Positions 6,154 to 17,684 of a stretch of DNA of 23,718 bases are shown here, in pieces. Origin of the DNA: a virus. Positions within the stretch are counted from its first letter, which is position 1. Every line of letters starts with the position of its first letter. The stretch is from positions 1 through 23,718 of the IMG/VR virus record IMGVR_UViG_3300006165_001806. One strand, given 5' to 3'. Made by a program: the position numbers and the translations under genes. The notes beneath the pieces were generated by a model, which was not told the DNA's origin, made no database searches, and saw nothing but the letters and a program-made list of their open reading frames with translations.

Positions 6154-7725
6154 CTAGAACTCTACTACTGCATAATTAGTTGTTACCAACGTAGATGAAA
6201 CGGAGGTGGCATTTTGTAGCGCAGTCCTTGTAACCTTGGCTGGGTCTATCACCCCTACTTCAAACAAATCCGTCATCTCGTTAGTTACAAAATTATAACC
6301 CATGTTCTCCTCGGATGCAAGCACTTTCTCAACAATTAGATCGGGGGAGAGGCCACAGTTAATCGCCATCTGACGAAGAGGTGCTTCCACCGCACTAAGT
6401 ATCAACTGTTTCCCGAGCCTCTGGTCTTCGTTGTCGAACTCTATGTGGTCTATGTCCTGCGTCGCCCTTAGTAAAGCGACACCTCCTCCCAGCACCATCC
6501 CCTCTTCTTGAGCCGACTTAACCGCCTCCAGCGCATCCTCAATTCTATGCTTCTTCTCTATCATCTCAATCTCTGTTGCACCACCGACGCGAATTATTGC
6601 TACCCCACTCGCCAAACGGGTTATCCTCTCCTGTATCTTCTCACATTCCCTCATATCTTCCGTTTGTTTTATCTCTTCTTTCAGGGATTCAATTTTTTCT
6701 TCTATTGCTTCGACGTCGCCGCTTCCTCCAACCACGGTCGTGTGGTTTTTGATAACCTCTATCTTGTCACAAGTCCCCAGGTTCTCCAGCTTAACATCCG
6801 CCAAGCGTAGTCCTGATTCCCGTGAGACGAAGGTGGCTCCGACGGATACACTTAAATCTTTTAATGTGTTTCTACGTTCTTCTCCATAGTAAGGGGCCTT
6901 GACCGCCGCTACTTTCATTGTACCTCTCGTCGAATTCATAATCAGTGCCGCCAACGCCTGTCCTTCTATCTCCTCCGCAATCACAATTAGGGGACGTCCG
7001 TCCCTCGCCGATAGCTCCAGCACCGGATAGATAGAATCTACACTGTCTATCTTATAGTCGGTTACAAGGATAATAGGGTTATCATATTTTATTGCACCCT
7101 TGCGTTGATTGGTTATAAATGATTTTGAGAAGTATCCAGAATCGAATCTAAATCCTTCTACGACATCCAATGTCGTTTCCATTGATTTACCGTCTTCAAC
7201 AGAGATGGCCCCGTCCTTTCCTGCTTGGTCAACCGCCATCGTAATAAGGTCACCGATTGATTTATCGTTATTGGCAGAGATTGTTGCAACGTGTCTAATA
7301 TCTTCCTGTGTCTCCACTGGTCTAGAAAGCCCCTTGATGTTGCCCACGATAGCTTCTACCGTCTTGTCCATACCTCTCTTTAGTTCTACCGGGGAGGAAC
7401 CTGCTACAAGATATTTTTGAGCCTGTTGTAGTATGGCTCGTGCCAACACAGTGGAGGTGGTTGTTCCGTCACCCGCGCTAACATTTGTGTTACTCGCCGC
7501 TTGTTTGAGTATTTCCGCGCCTACATTCTTAATAGGGTCCTCAAAGTTAATAAAATTAGCGACGGTAACTCCGTCCTTAGTGACTATCGGGCTATGACCC
7601 TCTTTATGCAGGATTACATTGCGACCTCTCGGTCCTAGAGTGGAAGCAACGTTGTCAGCAAGCTCGTTGATACCCTCAAGTAGCTTCTCATGCAGGGCTC
7701 TCCCTGAAGAATAGTGTTTAGTCAC
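6154..7725 (-). CDS. groEL: GroEL-type chaperonin (phage-encoded)
   Basis: The 523-residue protein aligns over the whole group I chaperonin: GPRGRNV (31-37), KDGVTV (50-55), AGDGTTTSTVLAR (84-96) with the ATPase Asp residues in place, the apical domain with IVIAEEIEGQALAALI, and RIEDALEAV containing the equatorial catalytic Asp (398 in E. coli). It lacks the Gly-Gly-Met tail of cellular GroEL and ends AVVEF. A charged stretch around the second hinge (EIKQTEDMRECEKIQERI) matches the family. It would fold phage proteins such as capsid or fibre subunits. No GroES gene is in this window, so host GroES or a distant phage cochaperonin is needed. Start is GTG with GAGGT upstream; a near-consensus promoter lies directly before it. 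Confidence 0.97.
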   Translation of the reverse strand: MTKHYSSGRALHEKLLEGINELADNVASTLGPRGRNVILHKEGHSPIVTKDGVTVANFINFEDPIKNVGAEILKQAASNTNVSAGDGTTTSTVLARAILQQAQKYLVAGSSPVELKRGMDKTVEAIVGNIKGLSRPVETQEDIRHVATISANNDKSIGDLITMAVDQAGKDGAISVEDGKSMETTLDVVEGFRFDSGYFSKSFITNQRKGAIKYDNPIILVTDYKIDSVDSIYPVLELSARDGRPLIVIAEEIEGQALAALIMNSTRGTMKVAAVKAPYYGEERRNTLKDLSVSVGATFVSRESGLRLADVKLENLGTCDKIEVIKNHTTVVGGSGDVEAIEEKIESLKEEIKQTEDMRECEKIQERITRLASGVAIIRVGGATEIEMIEKKHRIEDALEAVKSAQEEGMVLGGGVALLRATQDIDHIEFDNEDQRLGKQLILSAVEAPLRQMAINCGLSPDLIVEKVLASEENMGYNFVTNEMTDLFEVGVIDPAKVTRTALQNATSVSSTLVTTNYAVVEF

Positions 7726-7788: not shown

Positions 7789-8364
7789 CTATTCTTCGTT
7801 TTGTAATGAGTGGATTGTTTTTGCAAGATCGGTTAGAGCATCCATGAGAGGTTCCTCGATCATTGACTCCAGGTCAGGCCACTCACGAGACTGTACACGA
7901 GCGGCGCGTAACATATTTCTGGCCGTTATGAGGGTGTACTTGGAGGCGGCTGTTACCAACTCATCTAATACGAACTCATGTGGGATTTCGCCTACTCCGA
8001 GATCGTCACCAAGTTCTTCTTCCAGACCGGCGCCTGATTTTGGCATACGATAGTATATATCATCCATTGTCTTGAAGTAGATGTGCTCCGGCGTGACGCC
8101 CAAGAGTAGGACCTCTTTTGGGTCTGCCATTTGTGTTGCAGTCTTAACCGTGGCGACGTTGGTGTGGTCGACCATTCTATACCCAGACATTTCTGCCCCT
8201 ACGGCTTGGAAATCTCTAGCGGTGTCACTGAAGAATGCTCTCTTATCCGCATCCCTAGCTGCTCGCATAATACTGGGGTCTATGCTCTCCGCATCATTGT
8301 CATCAAAAGGTCTAGCTAACTCTTCCTTGATAATTTGTTTTAGTCTTGATTTATTAATTTTCAT
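7789..8364 (-). CDS. Protein with N-terminal LKQIIKEE tag (191 aa), possible virion protein
   Basis: It begins MKINKSRLKQIIKEE, nearly the same tag as the next-door protein at 8368-8988; the bodies after the tag do not look related. The remainder is acidic, mixed alpha/beta, with a strand-rich middle (EVLLLGVTPEHIYFKTMDD) and helical C-terminal part. The tag contains I-K-E, matching the (I/L)-x-E cleavage rule of T4-type prohead proteases, so it may be a removable capsid-targeting peptide. That is inference. It starts 3 bases after the preceding stop (TAATAAATG). No enzyme family is recognised. Confidence 0.75.
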   Translation of the reverse strand: MKINKSRLKQIIKEELARPFDDNDAESIDPSIMRAARDADKRAFFSDTARDFQAVGAEMSGYRMVDHTNVATVKTATQMADPKEVLLLGVTPEHIYFKTMDDIYYRMPKSGAGLEEELGDDLGVGEIPHEFVLDELVTAASKYTLITARNMLRAARVQSREWPDLESMIEEPLMDALTDLAKTIHSLQNEE

Positions 8365-8367
8365 TTA

Positions 8368-8988
8368 TTAATTCCCCGATCTAGCCATTATGTCCTGCGG
8401 AGCCATTAGACCACCCTTAACCAAAAGAGCAAATGCGCGTTCGAAGTGAGGTCTTAGATCACTGTTCGCCTGTGACATCAAGCGTGTGGACCTCTCTACT
8501 AGATTCGGACCTTCCTTTGGGAGCGATTCCCTGTTCTTTAATAGCCGTACAAGTTTCGATTCCGTCTCTTTAATGCCGTTAAATAATTTAACAAGATGCT
8601 GTTCGGCCTGTGCAACGGCTGGGCTCGTCTCTCTCAGGTCATTTAATACCTCAAGCACTCTTCTCGTGTTTTGAATGGGATCGCTATAGCGATTTTCGAG
8701 TTCGTCATATCGGCTATAGATCCCGCGACCATTGGCCCATTCATTTAAAAGACCCATTTTACCCGGTTCGTCACCCTGGCCACCGATAAGAACCCACTGC
8801 ATGTACTTCCAGCTACTTTGTAATTTTTCTTTAAGCTTGGGGTCTACTTCAGCAGTTGGTTGGCCTTCAGGCTTTTTCTCGGCGCTGTCCGGAGGGAGAA
8901 AGCTTTCCATTGTATGGCCAATTTCTTTTTTGGCTCCCGAAATCTCTTCCTTGATAATCTGTTTAAGTTGTTGTTTTGTAATTTTCAT
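8368..8988 (-). CDS. Protein with N-terminal LKQIIKEE tag (206 aa), possible virion protein
   Basis: It starts MKITKQQLKQIIKEE, followed by a Pro/Lys/Glu-rich linker (about 30-50) and a mostly helical body with charged helices (for example HLVKLFNGIKETESKLVRLL). The tag is shared with the adjacent 191-aa protein. AGGAG lies 8 bases before the ATG. It sits between the amidase and the second tagged protein, in a segment that also has a ClpP-like protease. Internal (capsid-enclosed) protein is one reading; nothing in the body points to an enzyme. Confidence 0.75.
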   Translation of the reverse strand: MKITKQQLKQIIKEEISGAKKEIGHTMESFLPPDSAEKKPEGQPTAEVDPKLKEKLQSSWKYMQWVLIGGQGDEPGKMGLLNEWANGRGIYSRYDELENRYSDPIQNTRRVLEVLNDLRETSPAVAQAEQHLVKLFNGIKETESKLVRLLKNRESLPKEGPNLVERSTRLMSQANSDLRPHFERAFALLVKGGLMAPQDIMARSGN

Positions 8989-9008
8989 ATTATAAACTCC
9001 TAATTTAA

Positions 9009-9890
9009 TTAGTCTTTAGAACCAATAGGATACTCTTTTAAATCGTTAATAATTTCATCGAGCTTCAGTCCTGCTGTATCAATCTTTCTCTTCGTCACAT
9101 GATAGTGACATACAACCCCATTGAACTTACCCCTGGCTGCATCCTTATCAACCGTAGTTTTTAATTCTTCAAACTTCTCACGGGGATAATCTTCTGCGAT
9201 CTTATAGTGGAATAGAAGCGCTTCTAGTAAAGCTTTGTAAGCTTTAATCTGCACGGGGTAATACCCAAGGTGGGGGGATAGTTTTCTACCATGGACTATA
9301 CTATCTTCTAGTATAGGTCGCGCTCCATGACCTCTATCAATATAAGTTTTTTGATATCTAGTATAGTAGGCGTTGCTGAGATCTACACCTATGGAGTTAT
9401 TGTTAACTCTTCTAATCCCAGCATGCCATGCTACATCGTTACAGTCAACTAGCTGAACTATGGTGCCATCATTGTCAATACAAAAATGAGTGGAGATGTT
9501 TCTTTTCTCCAAAACTCTCCTACAGGAGTCAGCCGACAGACAAACGTCCCAGTGTGTCACAACCATATTGGGATAGCGAGCTTTAGTAGACCTCTTGTAA
9601 CAGTCTCGGTCCATCATATCAATCTTGACCTTATCCCAAGCAATTGGCACTTGCATCCCATTACATATAATAGAATTCTCCGACTTATTTTTCGCTTCCT
9701 TCGCGGTGAAGAGCCTTCTATAGGTCAACGGACCAACCAACCCATCCGGCTCCAGATCCCACTCAACTTGGAAGAGCTTGATCCTTTGAATCAATTGGGG
9801 GTAAAAGCCTTCTAGACCAAACCAAGAGGGCTTCCACCCATGTTTCTTAGAACTCCTTTTATTGTAGGAGAGCTTGCTAAACCAAACCAT
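9009..9890 (-). CDS. N-acetylmuramoyl-L-alanine amidase with peptidoglycan-binding domain (endolysin)
   Basis: The 293-residue protein has an N-terminal peptidoglycan-binding domain (about 28-62, IKLFQVEWDLEPDGLVGPLT) and an Amidase_2 zinc domain (about 85-275). Likely zinc ligands are His113 (VVTHWD), a His in CHYH (262-264) and Asp271 (KRKIDTAG), matching the H-H-D set of AmiD-like enzymes; Lys residues 267-269 lie in the usual catalytic position. STHFCIDNDGTIVQLVD and AWHAG are typical core segments. It cuts the bond between MurNAc and L-Ala. No signal peptide is visible, so a holin-type partner is needed for lysis. GAGG precedes the ATG, using the ClpP stop region. Confidence 0.92.
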   Translation of the reverse strand: MVWFSKLSYNKRSSKKHGWKPSWFGLEGFYPQLIQRIKLFQVEWDLEPDGLVGPLTYRRLFTAKEAKNKSENSIICNGMQVPIAWDKVKIDMMDRDCYKRSTKARYPNMVVTHWDVCLSADSCRRVLEKRNISTHFCIDNDGTIVQLVDCNDVAWHAGIRRVNNNSIGVDLSNAYYTRYQKTYIDRGHGARPILEDSIVHGRKLSPHLGYYPVQIKAYKALLEALLFHYKIAEDYPREKFEELKTTVDKDAARGKFNGVVCHYHVTKRKIDTAGLKLDEIINDLKEYPIGSKD

Positions 9891-9899
9891 TGTTAACCT

Positions 9900-10556
9900 C
9901 TAAATAATATGATCGGCAATTCCGTATTGGACTGCCTGTTTCGCACTAAAGTATATATTAGTATTTTTCGCAAAAAGATCTCTAATTTCTTTTTGACTCA
10001 TTTCGGAGTCTCTCGCAAGTGCCTGTATGTATTGTTTTTGCGCCCATTTCGCTTCAGCCAACTCATTTTTCAATTCGTCGATGTTACCCTGTTGACCAGA
10101 GGAGACACCATGGATCATCAATCTACAGTTTGCCCCGATGTACCGCTCCCCCTTCGTGCCTCCTGCTAACAAGACAACACCTGCCGACATAACTTTGCCA
10201 AAGCCGAAAGTACGTACATCACACTCCCGCTGCATCATGTTAATCACATCATAAACGGCGAACATGTCTACAACAGAACCACCCCAAGTTGAAATATAAA
10301 AGTCAACTGGCTCATAGCTCACGTATATTGTGTTGCTATCCTCGGGGTCCGGCATTGTTTTCCTCCCCGCCTCTTTTAAATATAAAAGATTGTATATGGC
10401 GTCACTGCACTTTTCCTGTGTTATATCCCCGTAAAGAGCCGCGACACGGAGCCTTACCTCCTCTCTCGCCGGGCCGGGGGTTCCCAACAACGAGGCGAGA
10501 AGCTCTTCTGCCGTCGCCTGTTCCTCTTTCTCCTCCTCCGATTTGTCAAACTTCAT
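9900..10556 (-). CDS. clpP: ClpP-like serine protease, catalytic Asp apparently replaced by Asn
   Basis: The protein has the ClpP core: DFYISTWGGSVVDMFAVYD (85-103), GFGKVMSAGVVLLAGG with nucleophile Ser124, and RLMIHG with His149. The third triad position, Asp in cellular ClpP (RDRFLSAPEAVEYG), aligns with Asn200 in TNIYFSAKQAVQYG. It has an acidic N-terminal extension of about 30 residues rather than a standard propeptide. Likely roles are protein turnover during infection or maturation of virion parts; whether it works with host ClpX/ClpA is not visible. Its ATG overlaps the upstream stop as ATGA with AAGGA before it. Family sure; activity needs testing because of the Asn. Confidence 0.92.
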   Translation of the reverse strand: MKFDKSEEEKEEQATAEELLASLLGTPGPAREEVRLRVAALYGDITQEKCSDAIYNLLYLKEAGRKTMPDPEDSNTIYVSYEPVDFYISTWGGSVVDMFAVYDVINMMQRECDVRTFGFGKVMSAGVVLLAGGTKGERYIGANCRLMIHGVSSGQQGNIDELKNELAEAKWAQKQYIQALARDSEMSQKEIRDLFAKNTNIYFSAKQAVQYGIADHII

Positions 10557-11007: not shown

Positions 11008-11601
11008 TTATGCCTTTTTGCTAAGGTTTAAAAGTCTCTTCGCAACTCTCTTTGTTACCTCATTGAGGAAGTCTTCTTTGTTAGGATTCTCGTCCAGAGA
11101 AACGTCGGCCTCTTCCAAGGCCTCTTCTATCTCGTCCCATCCTTCCTCAAGCTCCTCCTCGTCTGAACTCATCTCCACTGCATCTTCCGCTGTGTCTACG
11201 AATTCTTCCTCTGGCATCTCCTCCTCTGGCATCTCCTCCTCTGCGCCCATGTCTACCTCCTCACCTCCTCCGGTAGAATCGACGTTGATCTCGACACCAG
11301 TCACTGACTCCAGTGCATCGGCAATTGCATCCACGATAGCCTCAACAGTCTCAGGTGATACCTCACCCATTGCGTCGCCCATTGCGTCGCCCATTGCGTC
11401 GCCTTCAGGAGGGGTATCTTCAATACCCATTTCCTCCTCATCTCTATTATACGCGGCGCCCATCCCCATTTCTTCAAGGGTTTCCTCTTCCGTGGTATCC
11501 TCTTCATTCACGTTCTTCTCGACAAAGTTCTCAGACAACCCTTCGATATTCGCTAGTTTCATAAACTTGCGGATGGTTGATTCATTTAAGGCCTTTTTCA
11601 T
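11008..11601 (-). CDS. Acidic scaffold- or virion-like protein with basic C-terminal helix
   Basis: The protein starts MKKALNESTIRKFMKLANI, has a long very acidic low-complexity middle (many Glu/Asp, GDAM x3, MPEEE repeats) and ends in a basic amphipathic helix (VTKRVAKRLLNLSKKA). An acidic body with a basic capsid-binding tail is the layout of phage scaffolding or prohead core proteins. LNE occurs near both ends (N-terminal tag and FLNEVTK), matching (I/L)-x-E prohead protease sites. I place the start at the ATG at 11601 (197 aa): AGGAG lies 7 bases upstream; an in-frame ATG at 11622 has none. It is flanked by the TAAATAGT motif and a terminator, so it is its own unit. Function is inferred from composition, not homology. 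Confidence 0.75.
   Translation of the reverse strand: MKKALNESTIRKFMKLANIEGLSENFVEKNVNEEDTTEEETLEEMGMGAAYNRDEEEMGIEDTPPEGDAMGDAMGDAMGEVSPETVEAIVDAIADALESVTGVEINVDSTGGGEEVDMGAEEEMPEEEMPEEEFVDTAEDAVEMSSDEEELEEGWDEIEEALEEADVSLDENPNKEDFLNEVTKRVAKRLLNLSKKA
11366..11401 (-). repeat. Three perfect 12-bp tandem repeats within the acidic protein gene
   Basis: CCCATTGCGTCG is repeated three times in frame, encoding GDAM units. A second in-frame repeat (CTCCTCTGGCAT type) lies near 11200-11245 and gives MPEEE units. Slippage could change protein length without a frameshift. Confidence 0.85.
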
Positions 11602-11638
11602 TTTAGTACTCCTAGTGCTCATTAAAGACTTGCACAGG

Positions 11639-11646
11639 TAAATAGT
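11639..11646 (-). promoter_or_regulatory. TAAATAGT motif (ACTATTTA on coding strand), candidate late promoter
   Basis: The motif lies 38 bases upstream of the acidic scaffold-like gene, in the 70-base gap to the sigma-like gene. It is one of three perfect copies in the window, each just before a virion-type gene. Confidence 0.4.
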
Positions 11647-17666: not shown

Positions 17667-17684
17667 TAAATAGTTGTAACTATT
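17667..17684 (-). promoter_or_regulatory. TAAATAGT motif overlapping a palindrome before the fibre gene
   Basis: On the minus strand AATAGTT-AC-AACTATT (17669-17684) is a perfect 7-bp inverted repeat continuing into AACTATTTAAAATGAA. The TAAATAGT copy (17667-17674) lies 31 bases before the ATG at 17636. A TTTACA 15 bases before TAAAAT could also be read as a weak sigma-70 promoter around the palindrome. Confidence 0.45.

Follow-up and report, generated by a model that had tools for sequence, protein, structure and literature searches.

The N-terminal head shared by two adjacent but otherwise dissimilar genes of an uncultured virus is interpreted here as a capsid-targeting sequence (CTS) that belongs to a lineage of uncultured, T4-like and mostly marine phages and would serve to have cargo proteins packed, cut and delivered. 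We put the probability of this interpretation at roughly 0.83. The presence of the tagged proteins in the virion, their trimming and their injection are inferences only, and virion proteomics are not available for any tagged phage.

Two tandem genes and the family of tagged proteins

Both genes, W1 and W2, are flanked by an amidase gene and by groEL in the window, i.e., the complete stretch of 23,718 nucleotides of IMG/VR record IMGVR_UViG_3300006165_001806 that was analysed, and the gap between the W2 stop and the W1 ATG amounts to 3 nt (Table 1). The preliminary description, which named no strand, had noticed two neighbouring proteins with a common head and unlike bodies, and this was borne out by 12 identical residues of 15 in the heads and by the assignment of the bodies, compared without the first 27 residues, to separate clusters. 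The shared head is a real and general feature. In a blind scan of all N-termini of the window, W1 and W2 were the top-scoring pair, with 52 versus 31 for the next one, and the same N-terminal scan run on T4 recovered IPII/IPIII. The degenerate head pattern matched twice in the window and in 0 of 100 dinucleotide shuffles, and the best non-tag start reached a profile score of only -13.0. Neither protein had a significant match in Pfam or PHROG, and no relation of their bodies to T4 IPI, IPII or IPIII was found. AlphaFold models of W1 and W2 were of low confidence and gave no Foldseek match at E <= 0.001, and no relatives of the W2 body were detected in viral contigs or phage records. The low-confidence model of W2 consists of helices only, with a tag helix from residue 5 to 27 that is followed by a low-confidence linker.

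Table 1. Positions of the tagged gene pair and its flanking features in the window
Feature	Position	Strand	Basis or remark
W2, tagged protein, 206 aa, helical body of unknown family	8368..8988 (8988->8368)	minus	ORF
W1, tagged protein, 191 aa, no known family	7789..8364 (8364->7789)	minus	ORF; orthologues
W2 tag MKITKQQLKQIIKEE, capsid-targeting-like head	8944..8988	minus	pattern match and profile score 51.2
W1 tag MKINKSRLKQIIKEE	8320..8364	minus	pattern match and profile score 43.0
Predicted W2 cut IIKE/E, Glu14 (codon 8949-8947) / Glu15 (codon 8946-8944)	8944..8949	minus	alignment with capsid-protein cut site and tag family
Predicted W1 cut IIKE/E, Glu14 (codon 8325-8323) / Glu15 (codon 8322-8320)	8320..8325	minus	same alignments; [LI]xE scan
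ACTAATTA, variant of candidate late-promoter element	9006..9013	minus	starts 25 nt upstream of the W2 ATG; role inferred
Amidase (endolysin-like), upstream anchor of the cassette site	9009..9890	minus	Amidase_2 9.2e-19; 85-95% identity in relatives
GroEL-like chaperonin, downstream anchor of the cassette site	6154..7725	minus	Cpn60_TCP1 5.4e-67; 89-93% identity in relatives

A search for other proteins with the same head, as suggested in the preliminary description, revealed only these two in the window and hundreds elsewhere in IMG/VR. The pattern scan of this database matched at least 119 stretches. In the DNA fetched from the matches listed, at least 170 proteins begin with the strict pattern (up to nine genes per contig), and those with enough body represent at least 140 unrelated clusters. 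With looser members included by a position-specific score (threshold >=20), the family comprises at least 356 proteins with at least 283 unrelated body clusters, among which conservation stops by about residue 22. When the threshold was lowered to 10, there were 393 real hits, versus a single one among about 32,000 shuffled decoys. The family has a sharp edge, since eight heads of the 186-kb sister phage G001 score at least 10.3 and the next start scores -8.2.

A search of bacterial and archaeal genomes (257 billion bases) found a close pattern in nine stretches, located on a few metagenome-assembled contigs. The prohead protease family Peptidase_S77 is present in two of the five assemblies behind these matches. 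Contigs NHDW01000006 (305,838 bases, filed as a Methylococcaceae MAG) and PBIO01000025 (101,404 bases, filed as a Halobacteriovorax MAG) carry many tagged genes; on account of these genes and of the S77 peptidase in their assemblies, they are probably T4-like phage contigs that were binned with bacteria. The phages that carry the tag form an uncultured T4-like lineage that is marine for the most part. Among isolates, the pattern had no match in T4, HTVC008M and S-RIM2 with two mismatches allowed, and no exact match in Mel-JY01, which ranked first among isolates for the protease. A tblastn search of the tag alone against phage records found nothing, but the query is so short that the search is insensitive. 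A description of the tag was not found among 5.4 million open papers, and its letters gave no relevant match.

The head could in principle be a mere recombination or translation-start module, i.e., a shared 5' segment encoding a functionless peptide, since tagged genes are often arranged in tandem (241 of 361 adjoin another tagged gene), some of them share 18 nt upstream, and cassettes are swapped at a constant head. However, several synonymous codons are used at every conserved head position across relatives while the residues are fixed. The head is thus conserved as protein and not as DNA, and selection acts on the peptide. Together with the compensation for a missing Glu14 described below, which is a protein-level signal, this leaves the module explanation with hardly any credibility.

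Cut-site motif and register with T4

The protease gp21 of T4 cleaves after (L/I)-x-E (PMC9026906). The capsid proteins of the tagged phages contain, at the end of their propeptide, LL[KR]E/[ASTQ] (the slash marks the cut), with LLDE/A in one and VLRE/A in some of them, aligned to the cut FLTE65/A of T4 gp23, and the corresponding site of the tag is IIKE/[EAST]. An [LI]xE motif is found within residues 12 to 26 in 375 of 380 tags, which documents the motif only, as no cutting was observed, and Glu14 belonged to the seed pattern. Glu14 is conserved in 278 of 283 clusters (98%), and it is followed in these 278 clusters by Glu (238), Ala (19), Ser (8), Thr (5), Val (3), Met (3) or other residues (two). 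A second [LIVMF]xE at residues 18 to 24 accompanies Glu15 in 175 of 238 clusters (57.7 expected from shuffles) versus 14 of 40 without Glu15 (7.8 expected; Fisher p=4.6e-6), and the contrast is also present inside the R-type heads (52/63 with Glu15, 10/31 with other residues). These p-values are only indicative, because the heads share ancestry although the bodies of the clusters are unrelated. Directly behind the second site, Gly (3x), Gln (2.4x) and Ala (1.6x) are over-represented, and Asp, Leu, Lys and Thr are under-represented. Among the tags without Glu14, 11 of 13 regain an [LI]xE just downstream, by residue 24, versus 2.9 expected, a value that is slightly low because residue 16 belongs to the profile. 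It may be inferred from these motifs that every tagged protein requires at least one good cut site.

W1 and W2 contain IIKE/E as their sole [LI]xE or consensus site (residues 12 to 40 scanned), and a Glu at P1' is absent from the capsid-protein sites of the tagged phages examined. Their trimming is therefore less certain than their targeting, and both proteins may be packed, yet poorly trimmed. Second sites are mostly present in the relatives at the same locus (KLGE/Q, VIAE/N, KLNE/G, TLNE/E), and the W1 orthologue of L123 has the second site TLNE. The absence of a second site from W1 and W2 would also be compatible with a helix for permanent docking to the scaffold, portal, tail or another virion part that is never cut and in which [LI]xE merely reflects the spacing of Leu and Glu in an amphipathic helix. 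The helix predicted over residues 5 to 27 of W2 and the continuation of the helix by L/I-xx-[LVI]-L-x-E in the Glu15 class are in line with this explanation. It is nevertheless improbable, given that the extension is gone if residue 15 is Ala, Ser or Thr, that [LI]xE is back when Glu14 is lost, that the preferences at P1' after the second site are cut-site-like, and that the motif of the tag equals the cut site of the capsid protein.

Residues 4 and 7 of T4 IPIII matter for targeting, residues 8 and 10 for processing, and an Asp at position 10 leaves targeting intact but prevents processing (PMC9026906). Counted back from the cut, these four residues represent P7, P4, P3 and P1 and correspond to L8, I11, I12 and E14 of the tag, which are conserved at 99%, 93%, 98% and 98%, respectively (no mutants are available). 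The other residues fixed in the seed (2, 3, 5 and 15) are less strictly kept in the wider set, at 93%, 92%, 89% and 85%.

The CTS of T4 IPI, IPII and IPIII (MKTYQEFIAE/A; PMC9026906, PMC3012670) is likewise a short head on unrelated small proteins that is closed by an (L/I)-x-E motif, and its key positions P7, P4, P3 and P1 are in register with those of the tag. A gp21-type S77 protease, a gp23-type capsid protein, variable cargo behind a constant head and the clustering of cargo genes are further common traits. In contrast, the tag has no recognisable homology to MKTYQEFIAE (its pattern is unmatched in T4), is longer (14 to about 22 residues) and often contains a second cut motif; the tagged bodies have no relation to the T4 internal proteins and are acidic in most cases; contigs carry up to nine strict-pattern genes as opposed to about three genes in T4; and the tagged phages are uncultured, with 0 of 4 isolates checked carrying the tag. 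Judged from its sequence, the tag is a variant of the T4 CTS whose use in an uncultured lineage is far more extensive. N-terminal propeptides of head proteins in the giant phages phiKZ and SPN3US are thought to target inner head proteins and are removed after Glu by a diverged relative of gp21 (PMC5694885). The N-terminal peptide, the cut after Glu (inferred for the tag from its motif) and the gp21-related protease are shared with the tagged phages, but most giant-phage propeptides exceed the tag in length by far (several of >100 residues) and have no single short head in common, and the capsid protein and protease of the tagged phages are clearly of the T4 type.

Head genes, upstream elements and cassette exchange

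Peptidase_S77, the family of the T4 prohead protease gp21, was detected in 16 of the 20 large contigs with tagged genes, G001 among them, a Gp23-type capsid protein in the same 16, and a T4-type portal in 17. Three of the remaining four contigs lack S77, gp23 and portal alike, as fragments would, and the exception is G016 with a T4-type portal, no detected S77 or gp23, and a single tag of weaker match. The random control of 12 contigs of at least 50 kb, drawn by an arbitrary 14-mer, contained S77 once and the tag never, but it is small and not limited to the sea, and the co-occurrence of S77 and tag may partly be due to shared ancestry instead of function. The window is a fragment without a protease or capsid gene, both of which are present in its syntenic sister G001. 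In G001, the protease is immediately preceded by a gene that starts with MTITKENLKKFILEQ, i.e., MTITKENLKKFILE/Q, and two tagged genes abut the protease in G007. A conserved gene close behind the protease starts with MNKSQLKKLIKPVVKECIQEVLIEEG, which is tag-like with a three-residue insertion as judged by eye. A ribosomal protein S21-like gene is also located close behind the prohead protease (L134:2895-3140 and L182:22183-22410); the phages with this gene are a tagged phage and Microcystis phage Mel-JY01.

Positions 9900-10556 of the window encode a ClpP-like protein, which is a head maturation protease according to PHROGs and a Clp protease according to Pfam. As the first choice for the trimming protease it was rejected, because G001 has a true S77 near its head genes besides the ClpP-like protein, and S77 is the protease that the cut motifs fit. 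The proximity of this gene, the location of the pair between an endolysin-like gene and groEL, and the retention of W1 beside groEL in 4 of 4 relatives could be indicative of a tag without any capsid role that addresses proteins elsewhere, e.g., to a phage nucleus or replication site, to RNA polymerase, or to the neighbouring GroEL or ClpP-like protease. This is very unlikely, since the tag is associated with T4-type head genes, is borne by a gene right beside that of the prohead protease and matches the register of the T4 CTS in its conserved positions, and since most tagged genes of G001 and G007 are not located beside groEL or clpP.

The element upstream of W2 occupies the same place in L121, L122 and L123. 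ACTAWTTA occurs at 29 sites upstream of tagged genes versus 3.9 expected, shows a strand bias to the coding strand of 35:0 and 33:1 in two relatives, and also precedes tail-sheath-, baseplate-, fibre- and scaffold-like genes, whose names are based on sequence resemblance and were not all searched. The T4 late promoter TATAAATA was not enriched, and ACTAWTTA is inferred to be the late promoter of this lineage in its place. In the window, ACTATTTA is found on the minus strand at 17667-17674, 11639-11646 and 1801-1808, in front of a tail-fibre-like gene, the gene of an acidic protein and another repeat-like gene, respectively. A near-identical stretch of 18 nt, TATGAATGGATTAGCAAC, directly precedes the ATGA of tagged genes in L028, L033, L044, L058, L095, L101 and L105; it forms a mini-ORF of six codons (MNGLAT), the stop of which overlaps the start of the tagged gene, possibly as a translational coupling or a recombination seam.

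The amidase-groEL locus is common to four relatives (L121, L122, L123 and L124). W1 orthologues with 61-80% identity are located beside groEL in all of them, and the position of W2 is taken by other tagged genes, one of 118 aa in L123 and L124 and two each in L121 and L122. The similarity of W2 to these syntenic genes is restricted to residues 1-17. According to this comparison, the body of the second gene is swapped behind a constant tag while the flanks are kept, which is the pattern described for the internal proteins of T-even phages, diverse defence proteins of which the targeting sequence alone is conserved (PMC3012670).

Proposed function and cargo

In the proposed mechanism, the head would form a basic amphipathic helix, MKITKxxLKxIIKE, that docks late-made cargo on the scaffold core of the prohead, and the capsid shell would then close around it. 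The gp21-type S77 protease is predicted to cut after Glu14 (phi-phi-[KR]-E/) and/or at the second site, [LIV]-x-E/[G/A/Q/S] at residues 18 to 24, a step for which the motif is documented and the cutting is inferred. The cut would free the cargo inside the head, and the cargo would enter the host along with the DNA, as inferred by analogy with the internal proteins of T4. The bodies would be exchangeable cassettes, of which W1 and W2 are two.

The earlier proposal of a T4-type capsid-targeting-like head ending in (L/I)-x-E is hence supported by several independent lines: the co-occurrence with S77 and gp23, the shared cut motif, the compensation for Glu14, the register with the mutated positions of the T4 CTS, the exchange of bodies behind a constant tag, the tagged genes adjoining the protease in G001 and G007, and the upstream element shared with tail-, baseplate- and scaffold-like genes. 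G016, the lack of homology to the T4 head sequence, the possible role of ancestry in the S77/tag co-occurrence, the P1' Glu of W1 and W2, the acidic bodies, and the absence of head genes from the window fragment count against it.

The tagged bodies are mostly acidic, with a median pI of 4.8. Pfam and PHROG searches of 141 tagged proteins found almost nothing, and the Pfam matches comprise eight families, each in one protein. A very acidic protein with the head LNESTIRKFMKLANI is encoded at 11008-11622 of the window. It contains ALNE/S, on the basis of which it is possibly a prohead core protein, and its type of head is a second shared N-terminal motif on acidic proteins of the tagged contigs L082, L110 and L121-L124. 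Program matches identified the genes for GroEL and the ClpP-like protease in the window, and PolIII-alpha-like polymerase, adenylosuccinate synthase-like, IMP dehydrogenase-like, cysteine synthase-like, peptide deformylase-like and dUTPase-like genes were named by reading the sequences.

The injected internal proteins of T4 are few. On balance, we lean towards the view that a single transferable head marks a huge, rapidly exchanged, capsid-loaded repertoire that a widespread lineage of tagged phages delivers to its hosts at the very onset of infection, much of which possibly serves counter-defence, and that release follows a two-site rule with either a small residue after Glu14 or a second cut site. 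Since nearly all tagged bodies lack a known family, they form a labelled collection of early effectors of unknown nature and of possible anti-defence proteins. As a short peptide, the tag might also provide a new means of loading proteins into T4-like capsids. With a tag that is readable from genomes, the question of which proteins an uncultured phage injects becomes a database search, and the list of tagged proteins is a list of those that these phages probably carry into their hosts.
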